From NCBI GenBank assembly GCA_020853525.1, contig JADYYS010000019.1, positions 1-64,000 of the forward strand: a stretch of DNA of 64,000 nucleotides, written 5' to 3'. Numbering within the stretch: the stretch's first letter is position 1; the number at the start of each line of letters is the position of its first letter. The DNA comes from Ardenticatenales bacterium. Lineage in GTDB: Bacteria; Chloroflexota; Anaerolineae; Epilineales; Epilineaceae. This document shows, in pieces, positions 36,000-51,581 of this stretch. The notes beneath the pieces were generated by a model that saw only the letters and a list, made by a program, of their open reading frames with translations, did no database searches and was not told where the DNA came from. The position numbers and the translations under genes are program-made.

Positions 36000-36041
36000 C
36001 GCGGGGGTGGGAGGGGCTTGAAGTGGCAGGCGACTGAATGT

Positions 36042-37586
36042 CTATCCCCCGCGCTCACCACCATCCACGACCGGCAAGTACGCCCGCCCCGCGGGCTGGG
36101 CGCCCGCCGTCACCGTCGGCTCCAGGCTGGGGCGCGGCGTCGCCCACGGGCTCGGAGCCGATGTTGGGGACCGGGTCGGCACCGTGCTTGGTACCCTGGT
36201 CGGTTCCGGGGTATTCGGCAGGTTGATCGCGGCTCCGGCCGGAAGCTCGTAGTTCCCACTGTGGTGGTGATCATGGCCGTAGGTCGGCCAGCCGGGACCG
36301 CGCCCGCCGAGGGAGAAGGCGACCGCGCGGCCCCAGTTCGCCTCCGGAGTGTCGGACTGCCCTCTGCCGTAGACGGCGAAGACATCGTTCGCTCCGTCGC
36401 CGTCGAGGTCGGCCACGGTCGGGTGGAAGTTGAAGGGTGCCGGCTGCGGAAAGGTCCGCGAGTGGAGAAGGCGCCCGTCGCGCCCCGAATGCACGTTGAT
36501 CGCCGGCAGCTGGTCGCCCAGGTTGCCGTCGGTCGCTGTGAGGATGTCGGGCAGCCCATCATCGTCGGCGTCAACGAGCACAGCGCCGCGCGGGGCATAG
36601 CCCGGCAGGTCGATACGAAGTTGCCAGGTCCCAAGGGCGTCGAATACCTGCAGGTTGTCCGCGGCCACCACGACCTCCAGCGCCCCGTTGCCGTCGAGGT
36701 CGCCCATCGCCGTTGGCCCGAAGACATAGGTCACGCCCTCCAGCTTCCTCGACCACAGTACCGCACCGTCCCGCCCGTCCAGCGCCCACAGCATCCCCGA
36801 GTAGTCGCCCAGGGTCACGTCGGGCACACCGTCGCCGGACAGGTCGCCGAAGGCCCCGGCGTGATAGGTCCAGCCGCCGATGGTCGTCTCCCAGCGCATG
36901 CGCCCGTCGAGGCCCGAAAAGCCACGCACCTTGTCGTCGAACCAGGTCGACACGACCACGTCGAGCCGGCCGTCGCCGTCCTGGTCGAACAACAGCGGCG
37001 CGCTCTGGTAACAGCCGCCGACATCGGCTGTCCAGCGCAGACGGCCCGACGTGCCGTCGAACGCGCGCAGACCGCCCGGCTCCCCGGAGCGCGGGCCACA
37101 GCTGGCCAACACGATCTCCAGCGCGTCATCTCCGGTCACGTCGCCGACCGCCTCGGGGGCGTCGAGCACCTCGCCGATCACCTTCGTCCAGCGGTCCCGA
37201 CCATCGGCGCCCGCTACATGGAATTCGTTGGTCTCGGAGTTTCCCCACATGACCTCGGGCCGGGCATCGCCGTCCAGGTCAGCGACTGTGACCGAGTTGT
37301 CCACCGGTCCGCCACCGCTCGGCAGCTCCCACAGCGTCGACCCGTCGTGGTGCAGCGCGAGCACCCGCTCGTCGCGGTAGTAGGTGCCGAACAGGATCTC
37401 CGGGTCACCGTCCCCGTCCAGATCGCCGACCGCCCCGCCGCCGAAGGACGGGGACCTGAGGGCGAGGTCGAACAACAACTTGCCCGCTCGGGGCGACGCC
37501 ATCGCCTCGCGCCCGACCAAGCCGGCAAGGGCGAGGGCGCCCAGGCCGGCGACCATCGCGATGGGGGGCAGGTGTCTCGGTCCCAC
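36042..37586 (-). CDS. Secreted FG-GAP / PQQ-like repeat protein
   Basis: 514 residues, GTG start. The N-terminal hydrophobic stretch (PIAMVAGLGALALAGLVG) is an export signal. Repeats such as GDLDGDGDPEILFGT, ADLDGDARPEVMWG, DQDGDGRLDVVVST and DLSGDGVPDVTLGD are FG-GAP blades with calcium loops, mixed with PQQ-like LWALDGRDGAVLWSRK. A PT-rich linker leads to the tail AYLPVVDGGERGG. Predicted extracellular. It stands alone between remnants of IS91- and IS256-type transposases, so it may have arrived with, or been isolated by, mobile DNA. Confidence 0.75.
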   Translation of the reverse strand: MGPRHLPPIAMVAGLGALALAGLVGREAMASPRAGKLLFDLALRSPSFGGGAVGDLDGDGDPEILFGTYYRDERVLALHHDGSTLWELPSGGGPVDNSVTVADLDGDARPEVMWGNSETNEFHVAGADGRDRWTKVIGEVLDAPEAVGDVTGDDALEIVLASCGPRSGEPGGLRAFDGTSGRLRWTADVGGCYQSAPLLFDQDGDGRLDVVVSTWFDDKVRGFSGLDGRMRWETTIGGWTYHAGAFGDLSGDGVPDVTLGDYSGMLWALDGRDGAVLWSRKLEGVTYVFGPTAMGDLDGNGALEVVVAADNLQVFDALGTWQLRIDLPGYAPRGAVLVDADDDGLPDILTATDGNLGDQLPAINVHSGRDGRLLHSRTFPQPAPFNFHPTVADLDGDGANDVFAVYGRGQSDTPEANWGRAVAFSLGGRGPGWPTYGHDHHHSGNYELPAGAAINLPNTPEPTRVPSTVPTRSPTSAPSPWATPRPSLEPTVTAGAQPAGRAYLPVVDGGERGG

Positions 37587-37794
37587 GGCGGTCAGCGTAC
37601 TTCTGGCGAGCGCTCCAGGTCAATCGATCGACCTCTGCCGCCGTCTCGCAGCCTTCGCAAGCGCCGGCCAGGGCATCCGGCACAGTGTAGAACCCCTCGA
37701 TGCACCGGAAGATGGCCATGCCAAGTCGACGAGGCACCGGCCGCTGGACTGCGCGACGTTCATGTCGACGCACGTCTCTGGCGCGGATGCAGGC

Positions 37795-37930
37795 GACAAC
37801 CTGCCCAAGCGACTGCAGGGCACGGCCAAGGCTCACCTCCACGCGATCATGTACGCCCCGATCGCGCCACGGACGACAACGAGATGAAGAGCGGTTCGAC
37901 GAGGTCGATTCGGCCAAGCACGCACGCGCG
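37795..37930 (+). pseudogene. Remnant of an IS256-type transposase
   Basis: Frame fragments LPKRLQGTAKAHLHAIMYAP and, after a frame change, RFDEVDSAKHARAT match consecutive conserved blocks of IS256-family transposases (…LPKSxQxxAKxxLHxIxxAPDRA… FDExYxAKYPKA). The two blocks lie in different frames and no flanking transposase remains, so the element is long dead. The rest of 37587-37955 holds no other supported feature. Confidence 0.6.
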
Positions 37931-37955
37931 ACCCAACGACCCGACAACAGGATCG

Positions 37956-39254
37956 TCAGCCGTGGGATGCCACAAACCGCTCGAACACCCTGTTCCCCAC
38001 CATCAACCCCCGCCCCGTCACCCGCGTCCGCTCCGCATCCACCGTGATCATCCCCCACCCCGCCAGCTCCGCCAGCACGTCGGCATACACGACCCGCGGA
38101 TCCACCCCGTGCAGCGCCGCGAACCGCGCATGCCCCACGCCCTCGTCGATCAGCCGCAGGCCCACCATCATCGTTTCACCCATCGCCGTCGGGCCGTCGA
38201 GGTGCTCCTCGAAGTCCGTCGGCAGCTCGCCCTCGCTCACGCGCCGGATGTAGCCGTCCACGGCGCGATGGTTGCCCCAGCGAACGTCGGTCGCGGTGCC
38301 GATGCCTGTTCCGATGCCTGTTCCGATGCCAGTGCCGATGCCAACGCCGGTGCCGATCCCGGTCGTGTCGCGCGTCCGCAGGTGCCCGTGGGCACCCGCG
38401 CCGCACGCCAGGTAGTCGTCGTTGCGCCAGTAACAGAGGTTGTGGCGGCTCCGGTGGTCGCTCGTGCGGGCCCAGTTCGAGACCTCGTAATGCTGAAAGC
38501 CTGCGCCGCCGAGAAGCGCCATCGCCGTCTCGTAGTGCTCGGCCGCCGCGTCGTCGTCGGGCGCGGCGACGGCGCCGGTGGCGACCCAGTGGTGGAGCGG
38601 GGTGTCGGGCTCGACGATCAGGCTGTACAGGCTGAGGTGGTCCGTCCCGAGGTCGAGGGCGCCGCGCAGCGTGTCCCGCCAGCGGGCGACCGGCTGGCCG
38701 GGCAGGCCGAACATGAAGTCGACGTTGATGTTGTCGAACCCGGCCGCGCGGGCGGCGGCGACGGCCTTTGCGATGTCGTCGACGCCGTGGATCCGGCCCA
38801 GGAACGCCAGCTCGTCGGGCTGGAGGCTCTGCGCGCCCATGCTCAGCCGGTTCACGCCGATCGCCCTGAGCCCCTCGAACCGGGCGGCGTCGACGGTGCC
38901 CGGGTTCGCCTCGGACGTGATCTCGGCGTCGGGGGCGATCGAGAGGTGATCGCGCGCGGCCGTGAGGATCCGGCCGAGCTGCGCCGGCTCGAGGACGGTC
39001 GGGGTGCCGCCGCCGATGAAGACCGTCGTGACCGTCCGGCCGTCGACGGACGGGGCGCGGAGAGCGATCTCCCGGCAGAGCGCGACGACGTAGCGCTCGT
39101 AGCGGTCTTCGAGGCCGGCGTATGTGTTGAAGTCACAGTACGGGCACTTTTGGGCGCAGAACGGGATGTGCAGGTAGAGGCCGATCCCGTGCGGCTCGGC
39201 TTCCGTCGGTTCGGCTCCCGTCGGTTCGGCACCCGGCGGTTGGTGTAACGTCAT
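37956..39254 (-). CDS. hemW: Radical SAM heme chaperone HemW-like protein
   Basis: 432 residues from the ATG at 39254. The radical SAM cluster motif CAQKCPYCDF (CxxxCxxC) follows GLYLHIPF; VFIGGGTPT, EANPGT, NRLSMGAQS and NINVDFMFGLPGQ are typical of HemW (formerly called an oxygen-independent coproporphyrinogen oxidase homologue). Two repeat-made segments are unusual: GAEPT-GAEPT-EAEP at the N-terminus and a glycine/isoleucine/threonine stretch of GIGT units (residues about 305-325) encoded by 12-bp tandem repeats in the C-terminal half. Divergent from the queuine operon across 62 bp. Confidence 0.85.
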   Translation of the reverse strand: MTLHQPPGAEPTGAEPTEAEPHGIGLYLHIPFCAQKCPYCDFNTYAGLEDRYERYVVALCREIALRAPSVDGRTVTTVFIGGGTPTVLEPAQLGRILTAARDHLSIAPDAEITSEANPGTVDAARFEGLRAIGVNRLSMGAQSLQPDELAFLGRIHGVDDIAKAVAAARAAGFDNINVDFMFGLPGQPVARWRDTLRGALDLGTDHLSLYSLIVEPDTPLHHWVATGAVAAPDDDAAAEHYETAMALLGGAGFQHYEVSNWARTSDHRSRHNLCYWRNDDYLACGAGAHGHLRTRDTTGIGTGVGIGTGIGTGIGTGIGTATDVRWGNHRAVDGYIRRVSEGELPTDFEEHLDGPTAMGETMMVGLRLIDEGVGHARFAALHGVDPRVVYADVLAELAGWGMITVDAERTRVTGRGLMVGNRVFERFVASHG

Positions 39255-39316
39255 GTTGCGTGCGATTATCGTCGCCCCGCCCGCCGAATGCCCACTGCGC
39301 ACCCCGAGGTTCGCCC

Positions 39317-40306
39317 GTGCCCGCCGTTGCCGAGCGTTTGCCCGATGCAGTTCGCGCCTCGTGCGCCGCCGTTGTCGCCACGGCCCGCCGCGCCTGGCCG
39401 GACGCCATCGCGATCCCGCAGCTCGCCGCCCGCATCGCCGTCGGCATGGAGACGGGCGCGTACGCGGCCGGATCGTGGGACGTGTCGATCCACTTCGCCG
39501 GCCCCCCCGAGGCCACGGTCCAATACCTCCTCGTGCTGGACGCGCTGAACTTCTGCTTCTGGACGACGCCCGGCTTCGAGTACATCGATCTCGCCACCCG
39601 CCTGCGCGATGTGCTCGCGTCCGACCCCGCCGCGTTCGACGCCGACCGCCTCGTCGCCGCGACCCCCTCCACGCTCGCCGCCTGGCTCGGCGCCGACGTC
39701 GCGCCGCTGGACGAGCGGGCGCGCCTCGTCCGCGAGGTGGGCGCGGGGCTCCTCGACGTCGACAACGGCTACCACGGCGGCAATGGCTACCACGGCTACC
39801 ACGGCCTGGCCGCCAACGTCGTCCGCGCCGCCGGCGGCAGCGCCGCCCGCCTTGCCGCCCTCGTCGCCGCCGCGTTCCCCGGCTTCCGCGACGGCGCGGT
39901 GTACGACGGCCGCCAGGTCTTCTTCTACAAGCGCGCCCAGATCTTCGCCGCCGACGTCTGGGGCGCGCTCGGGGGCGTCGGACTCGGTGCGTTTCGCGAC
40001 ATCGACGATCTCACGACGTTTGCCGACTACCGCGTGCCGCAGCTGCTGCGCGCGGAGGGGGCGATCCGGCTCGCGCCCGACCTTGCGGCGCGCATCGACG
40101 GATTCGATGAGCTGCCGGCCGGCGGCGTCGAGGAGGTCGAGATCCGCGCCGCGACCGTCGTCGCCGTCGACGCGCTGCGCGCCGCCCTCGCTTCCCTTGG
40201 CCGGCCGATGAGCGCCGTCGAGCTGGACTGGCGGCTCTGGAGCCGCGCCGAGGCGATTCGGGACCGGCTGCCGGCGCACCACCGGGTGCGGACGGTGGCG
40301 TACTGA
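39317..40306 (+). CDS. Queuosine salvage protein Qng1 (DUF2419)
   Basis: 329 residues from the GTG at 39317 (GAGG upstream); an upstream ATG at 39260 would add a poorly conserved leader. Motifs of the queuosine salvage/DUF2419 family are seen: LDALNFCFW, VFFYKRAQIFAADVW, LTTFADYRVPQLL and ELDWRLWSRAE. Characterised members release queuine from queuosine 5'-monophosphate. The insert NGYHGGNGYHGYHG near residue 150 comes from a short DNA repeat. It overlaps the TGT gene by one base (TGATG), which supports the function: queuine freed here can be used directly by TGT. Confidence 0.85.
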   Translation: MPAVAERLPDAVRASCAAVVATARRAWPDAIAIPQLAARIAVGMETGAYAAGSWDVSIHFAGPPEATVQYLLVLDALNFCFWTTPGFEYIDLATRLRDVLASDPAAFDADRLVAATPSTLAAWLGADVAPLDERARLVREVGAGLLDVDNGYHGGNGYHGYHGLAANVVRAAGGSAARLAALVAAAFPGFRDGAVYDGRQVFFYKRAQIFAADVWGALGGVGLGAFRDIDDLTTFADYRVPQLLRAEGAIRLAPDLAARIDGFDELPAGGVEEVEIRAATVVAVDALRAALASLGRPMSAVELDWRLWSRAEAIRDRLPAHHRVRTVAY

Positions 40307-41553
40307 TGGCGGCCGACGCGCCCACCCCACCCGTCTTCGAGACGTCTTGGACGGACGGCCGCGCCCGCGTCGGCCGTCTCGCCACGGCGCACGGCGTGAT
40401 CGACACGCCCGCGTTCGTCGCCGTCGGCACGCAGGCGACCGTGAAGTCGATGACGCCGGGCGATCTTGTCGACGTCGGCCAGCAGGCCATCTTCTGCAAC
40501 ACCTACCACCTGTTCCTCCGGCCGGGCGCCGACGTCGTGGCCGCTCAGGGCGGCCTGCACCGGTTCATGGGTTGGGACGGCCCGATCATGACGGACTCGG
40601 GCGGCTTCCAGGTCTTCAGCCTCGGCGCCGGCCTCGAAGGAGGCGTCGGCAAGCTCGGCTCGATCTTCCCGGGCGAGGGCGGGATGCGGCGCCTCAAGGC
40701 CGGCCCGTCGTTCGTGCGCGTCACGGACGACGGCGTGCAGTTCACGAGCCATCTCGACGGCTCGCGCCACTTCTTCACGCCCGAGGTGTCCATCGGGTTT
40801 CAGCAGCAGCTCGGCGCCGACATCATCCTGGCCTTCGACGAGTGCACCTCGCCTCTGCACGACCACGCCTACACCGCCGCGGCCATGCACCGCACCCACC
40901 GCTGGGCCGAGCGGTCGCTGGCGGCGCATGGCGGCGGGATCAGCCGCCATGGGGATCGCCAACTGTTCTACGGGATCGTCCAAGGCGGCTGGTACCCCGA
41001 CCTGCGCGCCGAAAGTACCCGCTTCACGGCCGCGCTCGGCGCCGACGGCATCGCCATCGGCGGCTCGCTCGGGCAGACGAAGGCGGACATGCACGCCGTC
41101 CTCGACCTCACCGTGCCGCTGCTGCCGGCGGACAAGCCCCGTCACCTGCTCGGCATCGGCGAGATCCCGGACATCTTCGCGGCCGTGGAGCGCGGCGTCG
41201 ACACGTTCGACTGCGTCGCCCCGACCCGCATGGCGCGCAACGCCGGCCTGATCGCCCGGGACGTGGACGGCGAGCGGCTGCCCCGCTTCCGCCTGAACCT
41301 GCGCAACGCCCGCTACAAGAACGATCCGCGGCCCGTCGATCCGGCGTGCCCGTGCGCGCTGTGCGCCGGTTTCAGCCGCGCCTACCTCCATCATCTCTTT
41401 CGGTGCGACGAGCTGCTGGCCTATCGGCTGGCGACGCTCCACAATCTGACCGCCATCAACCGCCTCGTCGCCGAGATGCGGTCCGCGCTCGTCGAAGGCC
41501 GCTTCCAGGCCCTCCGTGCTGACTGGCTCGGCGCTGGACAGGAGACCGTATGA
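40306..41553 (+). CDS. tgt: Queuine/tRNA-guanine transglycosylase
   Basis: 415 residues, slightly longer than usual bacterial enzymes (about 375). DSGGFQVFSL, FTSHLDGSRH, GIVQGG, AIGGSLGQ and FDCVAPTRMARNAG are the TGT core motifs, and CPCALC…H near the C-terminus is the zinc site. It exchanges guanine 34 of GUN-anticodon tRNAs for preQ1 or queuine. There are no queuosine biosynthesis genes in the window, and the gene sits between a queuosine hydrolase and an ECF transporter, so a queuine-using enzyme is plausible; base specificity is not decided from motifs here. Overlaps the S-component gene by 4 bp. Confidence 0.92.
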   Translation: MAADAPTPPVFETSWTDGRARVGRLATAHGVIDTPAFVAVGTQATVKSMTPGDLVDVGQQAIFCNTYHLFLRPGADVVAAQGGLHRFMGWDGPIMTDSGGFQVFSLGAGLEGGVGKLGSIFPGEGGMRRLKAGPSFVRVTDDGVQFTSHLDGSRHFFTPEVSIGFQQQLGADIILAFDECTSPLHDHAYTAAAMHRTHRWAERSLAAHGGGISRHGDRQLFYGIVQGGWYPDLRAESTRFTAALGADGIAIGGSLGQTKADMHAVLDLTVPLLPADKPRHLLGIGEIPDIFAAVERGVDTFDCVAPTRMARNAGLIARDVDGERLPRFRLNLRNARYKNDPRPVDPACPCALCAGFSRAYLHHLFRCDELLAYRLATLHNLTAINRLVAEMRSALVEGRFQALRADWLGAGQETV

Positions 41554-42260
41554 TGCTGCGTCGGCGTTCCGTTCTCGACCGCGTGCAGGACCTCGACCGC
41601 GTGCAGGACCCGAAGATCCTGGCGCTCATCGCATCGGCCATCGTGCTGAACTTCGTCGGGGGCGAGGTCATCAAGCTGGCGCGCCTGCCCGTCTACGGCG
41701 ACAGCGTCGGCACGATGCTCGTCGGGCTGCTGGCCGGACCGGTGATCGGTGCGATCGGCGGCGTCGCCAGCAACCTCGTGCTCGGGCTGCGCGACCCGAG
41801 CATGCCGTTCTTCGCACCGGTGTCACTCGTCATCGGGGCGCTCGCCGGGGCGTTCGCGCAGGCAGGGTTCTTCCGCGCCTGGCACGGCACGGCCGCGCGG
41901 CGCGCACCGGTCCGCACCGGCGCCGCGGCCGTGTTCGCAGGGCTGGTCATCGGCGTCGCCGCCGCGTGCGTCGCCACCCCCATCGCCGCCTACGTCTACG
42001 GAGGCGTCACGGGCGGCCCGACGGACGTCCTGTTCGCGGTCTTCCGGTCGTACGGGCTGGACGTCTGGAAGGCCGTCTTCGGCCAGAGCGTCGTCAGCGA
42101 TCCGATCGACAAGCTCGTCACCGCGCTGCTCGCCCTCGCGATCGTCTCGGCCCTGCCGCGCCGCACCGTCGCGCGCTTCCCGAACGGCCCGCGCCTCCTC
42201 GGCGACGCCGATGTCGAGCTGTCCGTGCCCGCATCGGCCGACATCGATGCCGTTGCGTAG
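41550..42260 (+). CDS. ECF transporter S component, probably for queuine or precursor
   Basis: 236 residues, about six membrane helices, with PVYGDSVGTMLVGLLAGPVIGAIGG near the start, the glycine-rich pattern of ECF substrate-binding subunits. An 18-bp duplication makes LDRVQD-LDRVQD at the N-terminus. ATG start overlaps the tgt stop (ATGA). Substrate inference rests on context: between tgt/Qng1 and the T and A subunits. It need not be a close relative of the QrtT group described in other phyla. Confidence 0.75.
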   Translation: MMLRRRSVLDRVQDLDRVQDPKILALIASAIVLNFVGGEVIKLARLPVYGDSVGTMLVGLLAGPVIGAIGGVASNLVLGLRDPSMPFFAPVSLVIGALAGAFAQAGFFRAWHGTAARRAPVRTGAAAVFAGLVIGVAAACVATPIAAYVYGGVTGGPTDVLFAVFRSYGLDVWKAVFGQSVVSDPIDKLVTALLALAIVSALPRRTVARFPNGPRLLGDADVELSVPASADIDAVA

Positions 42261-42285
42261 CCTCGCCTGAGGGCCGGGGAGCCGG

Positions 42286-43086
42286 GTGCCGCCTCTGCCG
42301 CCGACCCTCGGCCTGCGATCCGCCGCGAAGTGGCATCCCGCCACCATCGCGGGCCTGTCGATCTGCCTGACGTTGCTCGCGTTCTGGCCGCTCGACAGCC
42401 TCGCAGCCGCCGTCGTCGTACCGGCTTCCCTCGTCGCGGTCGCCGCGGTCGTCGCGGCGTCGGCCGGCCCCGCGGCCGCGCATCGCTGGCGCCGCTGGAC
42501 GATGGCCGCCGGGTTGCCGGTGGCCGTCAGCCTCTTCCTGATCCACGGCCTCATCTTCCCCGAAGGCCGCGACGTCCTCGTGCGCCTCGGTCCGCTGGCC
42601 GTGACCGTCGAGGGGCTGACGTTCGCCGCCGCCCGCGCCGCCCGCTGGCTGGCGGCGGCATCCGCGCTCGCCCTCGTCGGCGCGCTCTGCCGTCCCGCCG
42701 CGCTGGCCACCATGATCGAGTCCGCCTCGCTGCCCGGCGGCCTCGGCCATGCGCTCGCATCGGCGCTCCTCCTCGCGCCCGCCGCGCAGCGCAGTGCCGC
42801 CCAGATCCGCGAAGCGCAGCGCGCCCGCGGCCTGGAAACCGACGGATCGATGTGGCGTCGCGTCCGGTCCATCGCCCCGCTCGTCGTGCCGCTCGCCGTG
42901 GCCGTGATCGTCGACGGACAGCACCGGGCGCTCGCGCTGACGTCGCGCGGCTTCTCGCCCGGCCAGCCGATGTCGCACCTCGATCCGCTGCCCGACAGCC
43001 CGTTCCAGCGCCGTTTCCGGCGCGCCGGTCCTGCGATCGTCCTCTTCGCGCTCGTCGTCGCCCACGTTCTCGGCGCGGCGCGATGA
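42286..43086 (+). CDS. ECF transporter T component
   Basis: 266 residues, about six hydrophobic segments. The two coupling-helix Ala-Arg-Gly type motifs are visible: EAQRARGLE (about residue 185) and ALALTSRGFSPG (about residue 220), which in T components contact the ATPases. GTG start after GGGGAG; the stop overlaps the ATPase start (ATGA). Confidence 0.8.
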   Translation: MPPLPPTLGLRSAAKWHPATIAGLSICLTLLAFWPLDSLAAAVVVPASLVAVAAVVAASAGPAAAHRWRRWTMAAGLPVAVSLFLIHGLIFPEGRDVLVRLGPLAVTVEGLTFAAARAARWLAAASALALVGALCRPAALATMIESASLPGGLGHALASALLLAPAAQRSAAQIREAQRARGLETDGSMWRRVRSIAPLVVPLAVAVIVDGQHRALALTSRGFSPGQPMSHLDPLPDSPFQRRFRRAGPAIVLFALVVAHVLGAAR

Positions 43087-44711
43087 ATCGGGACGGCCCG
43101 CTGTCGGTCACCGGCGTGGGGTTTCGCTACGCCGGCGCCCCGGCCTCTCACCCCCCGGCGCTCGCCGACGTCGACCTGTCCGTCCGCGCCGGCCGGATGC
43201 TCCACCTCCTCGGTGGGAACGGCAGCGGCCGGAGCACGCTCCTCGCCGTCCTGGCGGGCCTCGCACCCGCCGTCACCGGCGGCACGCTGAGCGGTGCCGT
43301 TCATGGCAGCAACGGCACCGCGTTCGTCCATGCCGACCCCTACCTCAACCTGTCCGGCGCGCGCGATTCCGTTCGTGCCGAGCTCGCATTCGGCCTCGAG
43401 TGCCGCCGGATGCCCCGCGCGGCGATGGTCGAGCGGGTGGATGCCGCGCTGGATGCGTTCGCCCTGGCCCGCCTCGCCGGCCGCGACCCGACATCGCTTT
43501 CCGGCGGTGAGGCGGCGCGCCTGGCGATCGCCTGCCAATGGGTGCTCGAGCCGGCCGTCCTTCTCGTCGACGAGGTCGACGCCCAGCTCGATGCGGGCGG
43601 CGCGGCCGCGGTCCGCCGCCATCTGGCGGATCGGACGGCGGCCGGGGCAGGCGTCGTCTTGGCCGGCGCGCGGATGGACATGATCCCGGCGGCGGGCTCG
43701 GGGGCGGGGCCGGCGGATGCGGTTGTGCTCGCGGGCGGGCGCGTCGTGGCGGCGGGTGCGCTGGACGTCGTCGCCGGGCACGTCTCGGGGCACGATTGGG
43801 GCGTGGTGCCGCGGAGCGGGCCGGCGGTGGGTCGGGGCGCGTTCGACGCGTCGGGGGCGAACGGTGCGTCGATCTCGGCGCTCGCGCCGAGCATGGAGGC
43901 CGATCTCGAGGTCGCCGGACTGTGCTGCGCATTCGACGGTGCGGCTGCACCCGCCCTGGACGACATAACGTTCAGGGCCGTGCCGGGAGAGGTCGTCGCC
44001 GTACTCGGCCCGAACGGCGGCGGCAAGTCGACGCTGGCGCGGGCGATCACCGGGCTGCACGTGCCCGCGGCTGGGGTTGTGCGCATCGGCGGGCGCGACG
44101 TCGGGCGCGACGTCGGGCGCGATGTCGGGCGCGATGTCGGGCGCGATGTCGGGCGGGGCGTCGGGCGGGGCGGAGGGGGGAGGCGCGACGCCGGAGCGGG
44201 CTCCGGCAGCCGGCGGGATGACGGGCCGGTCGGACCGGCGCGCGGCGTGGCGCTGAGCGTACAGCGGCCGGAGCGGATGCTGTTCCGGCAGTCCGTGGCG
44301 AACGAGGTCGCGATCGGGTTGCGGTGGTGCGGCGCAGCGCCGGACATCGCCCGCGCCGCGGTCGGCGCCGCGCTGGCCGTGTGCAGCCTGGCCGACCGCG
44401 CGCTCGATCATCCGCACGATCTTCAGCCATCCGAGCGCCGCTGGCTGGCCCTGGCCGCCGCGATCGCCCTCCGCACGCCGGTCCTCATCCTCGATGAGCC
44501 GACGGCCGGTTTCGACGCCCGCGATCTCGCTCGCTTCGCCCGATGCCTCCGCCTTCTCCAGGCGGCCGGGCGCACCGTGGTATGGGTCACCCACGACCAC
44601 GGTCTCGCCCGCGCGCTGGCCGATCGCGCCTTGATGGTCGTCGCCGGCCGCGTCGAGGCGAGCGGCGCGGCGACGGACGTGGTCGACCGCTCGGCGACGA
44701 CGCATGGCTGA
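43083..44711 (+). CDS. ECF transporter fused double ATPase (EcfA1A2-like)
   Basis: 542 residues with two ABC domains. Domain 1: Walker A GGNGSGRSTLL has Arg in place of the Lys; signature LSGGEAARLAIA and Walker B LLVDEVDAQLD are intact. Domain 2: Walker A GPNGGGKSTLA, Walker B LILDEPTAGFD and VTHDH are intact, but the signature is degenerate (LQPSERRWLAL). So only one composite site (Walker A of domain 2 with signature of domain 1) is canonical. A 12-bp tandem repeat inserts GRDV units (about residues 338-362) between Walker A and the Q-loop of domain 2. Energises the S/T pair upstream. Confidence 0.85.
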   Translation: MNRDGPLSVTGVGFRYAGAPASHPPALADVDLSVRAGRMLHLLGGNGSGRSTLLAVLAGLAPAVTGGTLSGAVHGSNGTAFVHADPYLNLSGARDSVRAELAFGLECRRMPRAAMVERVDAALDAFALARLAGRDPTSLSGGEAARLAIACQWVLEPAVLLVDEVDAQLDAGGAAAVRRHLADRTAAGAGVVLAGARMDMIPAAGSGAGPADAVVLAGGRVVAAGALDVVAGHVSGHDWGVVPRSGPAVGRGAFDASGANGASISALAPSMEADLEVAGLCCAFDGAAAPALDDITFRAVPGEVVAVLGPNGGGKSTLARAITGLHVPAAGVVRIGGRDVGRDVGRDVGRDVGRDVGRGVGRGGGGRRDAGAGSGSRRDDGPVGPARGVALSVQRPERMLFRQSVANEVAIGLRWCGAAPDIARAAVGAALAVCSLADRALDHPHDLQPSERRWLALAAAIALRTPVLILDEPTAGFDARDLARFARCLRLLQAAGRTVVWVTHDHGLARALADRALMVVAGRVEASGAATDVVDRSATTHG

Positions 44712-45558
44712 CGCCCGGCCCACCGACCGTCCCGTCCCGTCCCTCTCGCCTCGCCTCGCCGCCATCGCCGCCCACGTCCCGCCGGGCGCCCGCCTGGCCG
44801 ACATCGGCACCGACCACGCGGTCCTGCCCGTGGCGCTCGCACGCATGCGCCACGTGGTTGCCGCCGTCGCGGTCGACCTGCGGCCCGGAGCGGTGGCGCT
44901 GGCCAACCGCATGGTCGTCCGCCACGGTGTCGCCGACCGCGTTGCCGTCCGGCGTGGTGACGGCCTGGCGGCGCTGCGCGATGGCGAGGCGGACGTCGTC
45001 GTCATCAGCGGTCTCGGCGGGTCGACGATCGTGCGAATCCTGGCCGCCCAACCGACGACGCTGGACACCGTCGGCCGCCTCATCGTCGCGCCGCAGTCCG
45101 AAACTTGGCGCGTGCGGCGTTGGCTCATGACGAACGGCTGGGCGATCGTCGCCGAAGTCCTGCTGCGGGACGGCGCGCAGGACTATGAGATCGTCGTCAC
45201 CGAGCGGGGCGACCCGCGCGCCGCCTACCGCTGGTCGGGACGGCCGTCGCAGCTGCGAACGGCCAGCCTGCTGTGGCTCGGGCCGGTGCTGGCCCGGGCG
45301 GCCGAGGCGCATTGGCAGGACCGCTGGCGGCGTGCGGCCGATGATCGCGAAGCGCTGGCCGACCGTACGGCAGCGAGCGGGTCGACGAGGGCGATCCGGG
45401 CGGCGGTCCGGCACAGGCGGTGGGCGGCGCGGACGCGGAGGGCGGTCGATGCGGCGGAGGGAGCCGCCGAACGAGCGACCGAGGGATCGCAATCGAGATC
45501 GCCGACCGCGCCGACCGGGCTCCGAACTGCCGGGGATCGGGCCGCTGTCCGCTCCTGA
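44704..45558 (+). CDS. TrmK-like tRNA (adenine-N1)-methyltransferase
   Basis: 284 residues, ATG overlapping the ATPase end by 8 bp. ARLADIGTDHAVLPVAL is the SAM-binding motif characteristic of TrmK (m1A22 of tRNA), followed by AVDLRPGAV, ISGLGGSTI and LIVAPQSE. The C-terminal ~80 residues are basic, Ala/Arg-rich and poorly conserved. Its place at the end of a tRNA-queuine operon gives a second tRNA-modification gene in the same transcript. Confidence 0.8.
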   Translation: MADARPTDRPVPSLSPRLAAIAAHVPPGARLADIGTDHAVLPVALARMRHVVAAVAVDLRPGAVALANRMVVRHGVADRVAVRRGDGLAALRDGEADVVVISGLGGSTIVRILAAQPTTLDTVGRLIVAPQSETWRVRRWLMTNGWAIVAEVLLRDGAQDYEIVVTERGDPRAAYRWSGRPSQLRTASLLWLGPVLARAAEAHWQDRWRRAADDREALADRTAASGSTRAIRAAVRHRRWAARTRRAVDAAEGAAERATEGSQSRSPTAPTGLRTAGDRAAVRS

Positions 45559-45651
45559 TGCGGTTCGCCGCGCCGAGCCGCTACAATTCCGGTCGATCCG
45601 ACTCCGGTCGATCCGACGCACCTCTCGCCGCCACTGGATGTCCGAGCGCCA
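45559..45651 (+). other. Short gap with duplicated 15-mer
   Basis: Between the TrmK-like and clpS genes, TCCGGTCGATCCGAC occurs twice in direct tandem (about 45587-45616), preceded by TACAAT, a possible -10 element for clpS. No convincing -35 was found. Confidence 0.4.
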
Positions 45652-46002
45652 ATGCCGCCCCAACCTGAACGCCATCTCGAGCCGGAAGGCGATGTCGCAG
45701 TCCGGCCGCGGGCGAGGAAGCCGCGTCCGTGGCGCGTGATCCTGCACAACGACGACTACACGACGATGGCATTCGTCATCCACATCCTGCAGAGCCACTT
45801 CGGGAAGACGGCCGCCGAGGCGACGCACGTCATGCTCCAGGTGCACCACAAGGGCAGCGGCGTGGCCGGCATCTACCCGCGGGACGTCGCCGAGACGAAG
45901 GTCGAGGTCGTGACCGAGGAGGCGCGGACCAACGGGATGCCGCTGCTGGTGGAGGCGGAGCCGGATCCGGACGGGGGAGAAGATGGCAACGATGAACGCT
46001 GA
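45652..46002 (+). CDS. clpS: ATP-dependent Clp protease adaptor ClpS
   Basis: 116 residues. The core WRVILHNDDYTTMAFVIHIL and the AxxxMLQVHHKG…AEVx motifs define ClpS, which delivers N-degron substrates (Leu, Phe, Trp, Tyr N-termini) to ClpA. Asn-Asp-Asp of HNDD form part of the N-end amino-group site. The charged N-terminal tail needed for ClpA handover is present. clpA follows 116 bp downstream. Confidence 0.9.
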   Translation: MPPQPERHLEPEGDVAVRPRARKPRPWRVILHNDDYTTMAFVIHILQSHFGKTAAEATHVMLQVHHKGSGVAGIYPRDVAETKVEVVTEEARTNGMPLLVEAEPDPDGGEDGNDER

Positions 46003-46118
46003 GCGGGACGCGGGACGACGGTTCGCGGCGAGGACGACGGCGGTCCGGCCGGCCCAGATGGCCCATCGCACCGCCGCGGTCCGCTCGGCCGCGGCGCATT
46101 CGGCGGGTTGACGCTCCG

Positions 46119-48482
<2,364 letters not shown>

Positions 48483-48551
48483 AGCCCGAACCCCCGCCAG
48501 TCCCTATCCACCCCCTGTCCGCCCCCTATCCGACCGCCGCAGGCGTGAGAG

Positions 48552-48582
48552 AGCCCCGTCGCGGCAAAGCCGCAACGGGGCT
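48552..48582. terminator. Hairpin between clpA and tRNA-Ser
   Basis: AGCCCCGT-c-GCGGC / GCCGC-a-ACGGGGCT with an AAA loop forms a 13-bp stem with one mismatch. It lies downstream of both convergent units (clpA on plus, tRNA on minus). No long U run. Confidence 0.55.
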
Positions 48583-48586
48583 CGAG

Positions 48587-48673
48587 CGGAGAGGGCGGGA
48601 TTCGAACCCGCGATCCCTTGCGGGATACACGCTTTCCAAGCGTGCGCACTAGGCCAGACTATGCGACCTCTCC
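48587..48673 (-). tRNA. tRNA-Ser (GGA anticodon)
   Basis: 87 nt without CCA. Acceptor GGAGAGG/CCTCTCC with discriminator G, D-arm, anticodon arm CGCTTGGAAAGCG (loop anticodon GGA, decoding UCC/UCU), long variable arm TATCCCGCAAGGGAT, and T-arm GCGGGTTCGAATCCCGC. The long variable arm is the serine-type hallmark. Confidence 0.95.
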
Positions 48674-48735
48674 ACGCGACCGCTCCACGCGCGCCCTGGC
48701 GCGTCGCGACGCGGCGGCGAGTGTAGCACGGGGGG

Positions 48736-49794
48736 ATGTTGGCCGCCAACGCACCACCGCGCTATCCTCGCAACGTGCGCCCCACCCACCCTGCCCCCCC
48801 CCGCGTCCTCGGCTGGTACCCGCCGACGGCCGATCCGCTTGCAGCGGCCGACGGCCCCGTGCTCGTCGCGGTGTGCGGCGCGCACGGCAACGAGCCGGCC
48901 GGCGTGGAAGCGGCCCTGGACGTCCTCGCCGCGCTCCATGCTTCCCGTCCTCCCGCGCGCGGACGATTCGTGGCCGTGACCGGCAACAGGTCGGCGCTCG
49001 CCCGCGGTGTCCGCTACGTGGATGCCGATCTGAACCGGCTCTGGACCGACGATGCCGTGCGCGCCCTGTCCGATCACGGCGTGCGTTCCGCACGCGACGG
49101 TGCCGGCGACCTCGACGGCGGCGTGGAGGCGGCCGAGCAGTCCGACTTGTTCGCCACCCTCTCGGCGATCATGGGCGGCGGCGAGGCCCACAGCGGCAGG
49201 GTGTCGATCCTCGACCTCCACACGACGTCGGCGCCCAGCGCGCCGTTCGCCATCGCGCTGCCGACGACGCCGAACCGGCGGCTGCTGGCCGGCGTGCCGC
49301 TGCCGCTCGTCCACGGGCTCGAAGGCCGCCTAACCGGTACGCTCTCGTCGTGGCTGGCGCGTGCGGGCCACGCCGCGCTGTCGGTGGAGGGGGGCCGGCA
49401 CGGCGACGCATCGAGCGTGCGGCACCTCGTCCACGTCCTGTGGCTTGCCCTGGCCAACGGCGGCGTCCTCGATCGGCGGGATGTCGCGTGGGCGGCGAAC
49501 GCGGCCGCGTTGCGCACGGCCCGCGCCGGTCGGCCGGCCGGCGTGACGGTGGCCTACCGCCATCCGGTGGGTCGCGGAGACGGGTTTCGGATGCAGCCGG
49601 GGCTGGAGAGCTTCCAGCGGGTGCGCAAGGGCACGTTGCTGGCCGAAACGCATGCCGGACCCGTTACGGCACCGCTCGGCGGCGTGCTGCTCTTCCCGCT
49701 CTACCAAGGGCTGGGCGACGATGGGTTCTTCATCGCACGGCGGATCGATACGCGGTGGCCGCACGGCGCACCGCAGCAGGAGGGGCAGGTATGA
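48736..49794 (+). CDS. Succinylglutamate desuccinylase/aspartoacylase-family protein
   Basis: 352 residues. The zinc-carboxypeptidase-like motifs are present: GAHGNEPAG (HxxE), DADLNR and LDLHTTS, as in AstE/AspA proteins that cleave N-acylated amino acids; family-level call only. The ATG at 48736 follows GGGGGG; a GTG at 48775 is an alternative. The gene overlaps the vWA protein start by 4 bp (ATGA), linking the two in expression, for no obvious functional reason. Confidence 0.75.
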   Translation: MLAANAPPRYPRNVRPTHPAPPRVLGWYPPTADPLAAADGPVLVAVCGAHGNEPAGVEAALDVLAALHASRPPARGRFVAVTGNRSALARGVRYVDADLNRLWTDDAVRALSDHGVRSARDGAGDLDGGVEAAEQSDLFATLSAIMGGGEAHSGRVSILDLHTTSAPSAPFAIALPTTPNRRLLAGVPLPLVHGLEGRLTGTLSSWLARAGHAALSVEGGRHGDASSVRHLVHVLWLALANGGVLDRRDVAWAANAAALRTARAGRPAGVTVAYRHPVGRGDGFRMQPGLESFQRVRKGTLLAETHAGPVTAPLGGVLLFPLYQGLGDDGFFIARRIDTRWPHGAPQQEGQV

Positions 49795-51581
49795 CGGACT
49801 TCGAGCGCGCCCGGAGGCGCCGGCGACGGCATGGCGTCATGGGGATCGCGGCGGCCATCCTCTTGGCCGGCGGCGCCCCCCTGTTGTGGAGCGACCTCCG
49901 CGCGAGCGACGCGGCGCGACGCCCGGCCGCCGCCCAGAGCGACGGTCCGCGGCAGTGCGACGTCCGGCTGACGAAGACCGCCGCCCCGGCGCGCGTCGTC
50001 CTCGGGCAGACGGTGCTCATCACGCTCACGGCCGATGCACGCTGCGCCGACGTGGTCCGGCCGCTGCACGTGGCGTTCGTCGTCGACAACTCGATCGCCG
50101 TCGGCGGACCGAAGCTGGGGGCAATGCGCAACGGCGTCAACGCCTTCGTCGATACGCTCGACTTCACGACGTCGCGGGCCGGACTCGTGGTGTACCACAG
50201 CGTCGTCGAGATCCTGGCCGAACTCACCGCCGACCCGGAAGCCATCAAGGACAAGACCGCCGCGTTCTTCCCGCGGCTCGGCAGCAACATGCGGATGGGC
50301 CTGATGGCCGGCGACCTCATCCTGCAGCGCGGCAGCGGGTTGGCGGTGCGGCCGGATGTGAGCGAGGTCATCGTCCTCCTGGCCGGCAACGTGGACGAGG
50401 GCGATCCGGCGGCGCTGCTGGCGGAAGCGGACCGGATCAAGGCGCGCGGCGTCACGATCCTGTGCATCGGGGTCGGCGGGATGGCGGACTTCGACGTGCT
50501 CGGCCGGATCGCGTCCGGACCGAACCATGTCTTCACCGAGGCCGACAATGCGCTCCTGGCCGACGACATGCGGACGATCGCCGCCGGGATCGGTCGCGTG
50601 CGTCTGACGGGGGCGTTCGTCACCGACACGCTGCCGGCCGATATGTCCTTCGTCTGGGGCAGCGATGACCCGCCGGCCCGGCCGCGCGGCGCGGATCTGC
50701 TCTGGAACTTCGCGCTCTGGCCGTCCGAGGGCTTGACGCTGACCTACGAAGTGGAGCCGAAGGCGCTCGGCCGTCACGCCACGAACGTCGGCGCCGAGGT
50801 CGAGCTGCGCTTCGACCAGGGGGCGCCCAAACGGTATCCCTTCCCGGTCCCCGAGGTCGAGGTCGTCCTGCCGCCGACGGCCACCGCCACCGCGTCCCCG
50901 ACGCCGACCGCCTCGCCGCCGCCGACGCCGACGCCGGTGCTCCTCCCGGCGTACCTCCCCGTCGCGCTCCGCCGCCACTGCGCGCCCGATCTGCGCGGCG
51001 CGGACTTCATCGTCGTCATCGACACCTCGCTGTCCATGGTCGAACGGACGGCCGGCGAGCCCAAGCTGGCATGGGCCACGCTGGCGGCGAGCGCCTTCAT
51101 GGACGAGCTGATCCTGCCCGCCGATCGCGCCGGCGTCGTCGTGTTCAACAGCCAGGCGCGGCTGCTGCAGCCGCTGTCCGCCAACCTCGGTGCGCTGCAG
51201 TACGCGCTCTTGGCGCTGTTCAACCAGCTGGCCACCGGCACGCGCCTCGACCTCGGGCTGCAGCTGGCGGCGGACGAGCTGGCCGGCGTCGTGCCCGGTG
51301 GTTATCCGGGCCCGGTGCCGGTGCGCTACCTGGACCCCGAGCGCGACAAGGTGATCGTCGTCCTGACGGACGGCCAGACGGACCCGGAGCGAACGGCCGC
51401 CGTCGCCGCCCGGATCCGCGGCCAGGGCGTGACGATCTACACGATCGGCCTGGGTGATCAGGTCGACGGGCGACTGCTGGAACGGATCGCCGGCAGCCCG
51501 TCGCGCTACTTCCCGACGGCCGACGGGCAGGCGCTGGCCGACATCTATCGACAGATCGCGTTGTACAGGGGTTGTCCGTAA
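49791..51581 (+). CDS. Secreted protein with two vWA domains
   Basis: 596 residues. A basic N-terminus and hydrophobic segment (VMGIAAAILLAGGAPLLW) export it. A Cys-bounded beta domain (CDVRLTKTAAP… ADARCADV) precedes vWA domain 1 (about 90-270), whose MIDAS is altered (VVDNSIAV). After a PTPT linker and the motif AYLPVALRR comes vWA domain 2 (about 405-590) with an intact MIDAS (VIDTSLSM) and VLTDGQTDPE. The LP motif is therefore internal. Metal-dependent adhesion to proteins or surface assembly is inferred from the second domain. Confidence 0.75.
   Translation: MTDFERARRRRRRHGVMGIAAAILLAGGAPLLWSDLRASDAARRPAAAQSDGPRQCDVRLTKTAAPARVVLGQTVLITLTADARCADVVRPLHVAFVVDNSIAVGGPKLGAMRNGVNAFVDTLDFTTSRAGLVVYHSVVEILAELTADPEAIKDKTAAFFPRLGSNMRMGLMAGDLILQRGSGLAVRPDVSEVIVLLAGNVDEGDPAALLAEADRIKARGVTILCIGVGGMADFDVLGRIASGPNHVFTEADNALLADDMRTIAAGIGRVRLTGAFVTDTLPADMSFVWGSDDPPARPRGADLLWNFALWPSEGLTLTYEVEPKALGRHATNVGAEVELRFDQGAPKRYPFPVPEVEVVLPPTATATASPTPTASPPPTPTPVLLPAYLPVALRRHCAPDLRGADFIVVIDTSLSMVERTAGEPKLAWATLAASAFMDELILPADRAGVVVFNSQARLLQPLSANLGALQYALLALFNQLATGTRLDLGLQLAADELAGVVPGGYPGPVPVRYLDPERDKVIVVLTDGQTDPERTAAVAARIRGQGVTIYTIGLGDQVDGRLLERIAGSPSRYFPTADGQALADIYRQIALYRGCP

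Follow-up and report, generated by a model that had tools for sequence, protein, structure and literature searches.

A putative direct queuine salvage operon with its own ECF transporter in an Ardenticatenales bacterium (Chloroflexota)

Eukaryotes, and many bacteria as well, depend on import for the micronutrient queuine. To our knowledge, many of the bacterial queuine transporters are still unidentified. A run of six plus-strand genes in an Ardenticatenales bacterium (assembly GCA_020853525.1, contig JADYYS010000019.1; the 64,000-nucleotide stretch analysed is referred to as the window) raises the question of whether this organism takes up queuine, or a compound that yields it, for direct insertion into tRNA: the genes, all with intact frames, occupy positions 39317-45558 and encode Qng1, TGT, the S, T and fused A-A’ components of an ECF transporter, and a TrmK-like protein (Table 1). 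The original prediction was that a queuine-type compound is imported, queuine is released from queuosine nucleotides and is then inserted into tRNA. Our analysis favours this reading, direct queuine salvage, with a probability of roughly 0.8; it is the best explanation of the locus because of the absence of the Que genes searched for, the queuine-type pocket of the TGT and the recurrence of the gene order in other genomes. Since the transporter, the releasing enzyme and the inserting enzyme lie together, a single cloned segment would suffice to test the substrate.

The place, strand and identities of the six genes were confirmed by Pfam and NCBIfam searches. The genes had been described as overlapping or abutting throughout, which is true of the Qng1/TGT (-1 base), TGT/S (-4), T/A (-4) and A/TrmK (-8) joins, but not of S and T, which are separated by a gap of 25 bases (+25). 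Upstream of Qng1 lies hemW in divergent orientation, and the operon promoter would thus be expected in the short space before position 39317. An Rfam scan of positions 36000-50000 detected neither a preQ1 riboswitch nor any other Rfam riboswitch. On the far side, genes for ClpS (45652-46002) and ClpA (46119-48482) follow on the same strand, preceded by gaps of 93 and 116 bases respectively, and a minus-strand tRNA-Ser (gga; 48586-48673) lies directly past clpA; a tmRNA call overlapping this tRNA is probably spurious.

Table 1. Genes and repeat element of the predicted salvage operon, with window coordinates.
Feature	Position	Strand	Start	Assignment and remarks
Qng1/DUF2419 queuosine-nucleotide glycosylase	39317..40306	+	GTG	329 aa; PF10343; longer ORF from 39260
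tRNA-guanine transglycosylase (TGT)	40306..41553	+		Pocket GGSLG; sole genome copy; TIGR00430
ECF S component, QrtT/CD3073-like	41550..42260	+		Predicted substrate queuine and/or queuosine; NF045596, AlphaFold fold
ECF T (EcfT/CbiQ-like) transmembrane coupling subunit	42286..43086	+	GTG	PF02361
Fused ECF A-A’ ATPase	43083..44711	+		Two ABC_tran stretches
12-base tandem repeat	44090..44167	+		6.5 copies; GRDV-type residues, ATPase domain 2
TrmK-like tRNA m1A22 methyltransferase	44704..45558	+		8-base overlap with EcfA; PF04816

The window Qng1 covers positions 2-285 of the 285-position PF10343 profile (E 2.4e-65, 221 bits against a cut-off of 25) and aligns with the solved DUF2419 protein of Sphaerobacter (7u07, E 2.3e-55). 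D298 and W302, named as active-site residues of the Sphaerobacter enzyme (PMC11592518), correspond in the 7u07 alignment to D and W in the window protein, the former encoded by codon 40226-40228. Qng1 is matched in 98 of 400 genomes of the phylum. The ECF set is complete as well: the S fold, a T subunit (PF02361, E 1.4e-14, with RARG and SRG motifs) and two ABC ATPase domains are all present. With the Qng1 active site kept, a full ECF set and, as we show below, a lone queuine-type TGT, the predicted sequence of import, queuine release and tRNA insertion holds up. The sixth gene was listed with the operon in the original prediction, and its assignment to TrmK is clear (PF04816, E 3.2e-41, 141.6 bits against a cut-off of 27); TrmK was, however, not found in the related operons at loci L088, L089 and L140, and we have dropped it from the queuosine scheme because it is not conserved there.

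Could the host make queuosine itself? The assembly comprises 4.27 Mb in 76 contigs at 96.85% completeness, so about 3% of the genome could be lacking from it. Family searches across the genome covered QueA, QueC, QueD, QueF and QueG. QueA, which the same search found in 35 of 41 genomes, has no match in the host, and neither do QueG and QueD; the queuosine-precursor transporter QPTR is likewise absent as judged by family search. As for the remaining candidates, reading of the sequences identified the QueC-like matches as asparagine synthase AsnB and GMP synthase GuaA and the QueF-like match as GTP cyclohydrolase FolE. The statement that no queuosine synthesis genes lie near the operon can therefore be extended to the whole assembly for QueA, QueC, QueD, QueF and QueG, and with these absent we found no full de novo pathway that would use the tgt of the operon, the only copy in the genome.

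The TGT itself tells the same story. It is matched by PF01702 (E 4.5e-129) and by TIGR00430 (450 bits, over the cut-off). Among bacterial TGTs, queuine-inserting enzymes have the pocket GG[LS][AS]G and preQ1-type enzymes GGLAVG (PMC10723273). By alignment, the window TGT has the pocket GGSLG, in which one residue of the preQ1-type GGL[AS]VG is missing; it agrees with the queuine-inserting motif in length and pattern, though not letter for letter, the fourth letter being L instead of A or S. In addition, the genome shows the further hallmark of a queuine-specific TGT, encoding this enzyme but neither QueA nor QueG. To place this pocket among relatives, we compared 30 genomes picked for holding an S relative or Qng1. 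A pocket lacking the valine was found in 11 of 11 genomes without QueA, where it reads GGSLG or GGLAGD, but in no more than 2 of the 19 that have a QueA match (Fisher p 1.4e-6; this p-value makes the link look stronger than it is, since several of the 30 genomes share a genus and are not independent). In both exceptions, G342 and G109, the QueA match is a divergent protein, scoring 183 and 169 bits, compared with an equivalog cut-off of 324 and 467 bits for a true QueA. Across relatives within the phylum, pocket type thus tracks the absence of QueA.

Divergent QueA-like proteins of this kind were seen at three loci (L197 2346-3368, L198 2046-3080 and L199 1280-2317; 169-183 bits against the cut-off of 324), two of which belong to genomes with a TGT pocket other than the preQ1 type. 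Genome G166 (L081, L182), which was entered as preQ1-type in the 30-genome test, has three TGT matches, among them a GGSLG TGT adjoining Qng1 and a GGLSVG TGT, plus QueA and QPTR; it holds the salvage and the synthesis types side by side.

What does the transporter carry? Searched alone against the PDB, the S sequence returned chance matches only. The top structural matches of its AlphaFold model (pLDDT 88.8) are all ECF S components, namely ThiT, FolT, RibU, BioY and PanT (best Z 13.6), and the protein is accordingly predicted to have the ECF S fold. As to family, S is under the cut-off of PF12822 (E 1.5e-4) and falls short of that of NF045596, the CD3073 family of ECF S components (E 8.4e-29, 100.5 bits against 180), which counts against the salvage reading. 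NF045596 is the best family for the S group, yet the relatives score 101-140 bits and every protein tested is under the cut-off. The assignment of a substrate draws on gene neighbourhood and host genotype.

One alternative is that the transporter imports preQ1 or preQ0, or a pterin-like vitamin such as folate, and not queuine. Accounts in PMC11130926 and PMC5372724 lend it some weight: preQ1 uptake was the first role predicted for QrtT/QueT, one C. difficile QrtT imports preQ1 only, and a ureide permease adjoining qng1 moved preQ0 and preQ1. Our own searches add that, by S family profile, folate S components come closest among solved proteins (E 7e-9). This nearness leaves some doubt, but as far as the family models tell, the S component does not cluster with the transporter of another vitamin, the outcome named at the outset as contradicting a queuine substrate: the folate-family model TIGR04518 does not match the window S at all, and those relatives that it does match score 22-28 bits, well short of the cut-off of 60. 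Furthermore, without QueA and QueG the known route cannot turn imported preQ1 into queuosine, and the pocket of the window TGT is not of the preQ1 type. We consider this alternative improbable and retain queuine salvage as the preferred reading.

The S alignment, run against GTDB genomes, picked up 80 loci. Two Ardenticatenaceae MAGs (L088, L089) have Qng1-TGT-S-T-A in the identical order; TGT-S-T-A is found at L140 and L201 in two further genomes, a Chloroflexi MAG and G342, and S-T-A-A-Qng1 at L163, in an Acetothermia MAG. S is thus adjoined by TGT and/or Qng1 in the window and at L088, L089, L140, L163 and L201, a linkage that is one mark of a QrtT-type S component, and chance is excluded as its cause because the same gene order repeats in other genomes. 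The closest S match beyond the host genome in the phylum search, in G039, shares a contig with Qng1 and TGT, the three genes lying far apart; this genome too lacks QueA.

We then asked whether the Q-linked S components share a single descent, using a tree of 38 rows. The window S is the longest end branch, another point against the salvage reading, and because of this long branch its exact place is unsure. Grouping the nine Q-linked or queuine-type rows as one clade was rejected (p-AU 0.025), which again speaks against salvage, while grouping the window S with L035, L088 and L089 was not (p-AU 0.38). The original prediction of a dedicated, queuosine-specific S component consequently fares differently in its two parts: the linkage to TGT and Qng1 does recur, but specificity by descent is contradicted by the rejected clade and by a wider family that also sits beside nucleoside hydrolases, PfkB kinases and other genes.

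This wider family suggests a second alternative, in which the transporter is a broad nucleoside importer with queuosine as one substrate, and Qng1 and TGT use one of its products. IU_nuc_hydro nucleoside hydrolases, frequently a tandem pair, adjoin 33 of the 80 loci, and a PfkB kinase accompanies many of these. In its favour, too, the genomes tested that have this S type possess QueA and a preQ1-type TGT. However, the S components at such loci form a separate tree group (support 99/99), and the window S falls in another supported part of the tree together with most Q-linked, PDH-linked and other S components. The window operon has neither a nucleoside hydrolase nor a sugar kinase, and close linkage to TGT or Qng1 recurs several times within the window S group. 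A broad nucleoside importer is therefore unlikely in our estimation, if less so than a preQ1 or folate transporter, and queuine salvage remains favoured. Taken as a whole, the family looks like one that carries ligands resembling nucleosides or bases, and its linkage to queuosine salvage would have arisen, or persisted, more than once.

The fetched stretches of the 80 loci hold other recurrent neighbours, including a PfkB kinase at 26, a PCC-domain protein at 27, PDH genes and an IF-2B-family protein. L098 (3094-5932) and 32 other loci, mostly from Anaerolineales, combine a PfkB kinase, one or two IU_nuc_hydro genes and ECF S-T-A-A, probably a nucleoside uptake system. A PCC-domain gene accompanies ECF S-T-A-A at L157 (5535-8622), L148, L164 and L167, in Citrobacter, Buttiauxella, Trabulsiella and Atlantibacter. 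In Ignavibacteria (L104, L128, L129, L165), an S relative lies directly 3’ of the pyruvate dehydrogenase E1/E2 genes.

The fused ATPase is asymmetric. Domain 1 has the Walker A GGNGSGRST and the signature LSGGE, domain 2 the Walker A GPNGGGKST and the signature LQPSE. In relatives, the domain 1 signature is LSGGQ or LSGGE (ISGGE in L163), and alignment shows that domain 2 lacks LSGGQ throughout, with LLPNQ in L088 and L089, LPPAR in the Roseiflexus relatives and LHTAQ in Citrobacter; both Walker motifs, A and B, and the switch His are retained in domain 2. The loss of LSGGQ from domain 2 implies that only one of the two composite ATP sites is canonical. In the window, the other, degenerate site additionally lacks the domain 1 His and the Walker A lysine, which is replaced by arginine (GRST), unlike in L088 and L089. 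In a group II ECF transporter, by contrast, the signature motif engages Mg-ATP in each of the two ATPase subunits (PMC10368641). We encountered no description of degenerate ATP sites in ECF transporters in the literature searched, which is not proof of their absence. That the group is a distinct ECF subtype in which one ATP site works while the degenerate state of the other is conserved, with a Chloroflexota lineage specialised to queuine or queuosine import, is a tentative idea that we hold to be possible rather than probable; in any case, the transporter subgroup stands out by the asymmetry of its ATPase.

The lysine-to-arginine change in the domain 1 Walker A also counts against salvage. 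Together with the long S branch and the in-frame expansion of a 12-base repeat in ATPase domain 2, it could indicate that the operon is decaying, a formerly complete salvage transporter that is losing function. But the six frames are intact and their joins tight, the substitution falls in a site already degenerate through the partner signature with the other ATP site canonical, and in-frame repeats turn up often within the window; decay is the least probable of the readings that we weighed, and very unlikely. The repeat itself falls between Walker A and the Q-loop; hemW (38296-38361) and other parts of the window have comparable in-frame repeats.

Under the preferred reading, direct queuine salvage, the S component would bind a queuosine precursor outside the cell, and the T and fused A-A’ components would import it at the expense of ATP. 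Queuosine or its nucleotide, whether imported or stemming from the cell’s own tRNA turnover, would be hydrolysed by Qng1 to give free queuine, which TGT would then insert into tRNA, giving the predicted queuosine modification.

How does this arrangement compare with known systems? An earlier prediction, cited in PMC5372724, had already placed ECF components of the QrtT/QueT type beside queuosine genes, and in the tests reported in PMC11477304 and PMC11130926, C. difficile QrtT imports preQ1, q and Q. Section 2.2 of PMC11130926 places PF12822/QrtT-type ECF transporters beside bTGT, Qng1 or QueK; Chloroflexota are not mentioned in its main text. A QrtT-type ECF component beside TGT or Qng1 is therefore already reported, and what is added here is the direct Qng1 route with the full ECF set in the operon. 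The C. difficile QrtT (QrtTUVW)/QueK/QueL system resembles the window in that an ECF S component adjoins a queuosine-releasing hydrolase. Its route, however, is indirect: a standard TGT receives preQ1 that QueK and QueL have regenerated, and the system is under a preQ1 riboswitch. In the window, Qng1 replaces QueK, the operon has no queL, the TGT is of the queuine type, no Rfam riboswitch is detected, and the T and A genes are inside the operon. Sphaerobacter thermophilus Qng1 (7u07, 7u91) belongs to the same family as the window protein, with a near full-length alignment and the active-site D and W, but the descriptions consulted characterise the enzyme alone and give no transporter context. 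Chlamydia trachomatis likewise has a TGT shifted to queuine while other queuosine synthesis genes are missing (PMC10723273); there, the transporter is QPTR/YhhQ, whereas here an ECF transporter and Qng1 stand in its place.
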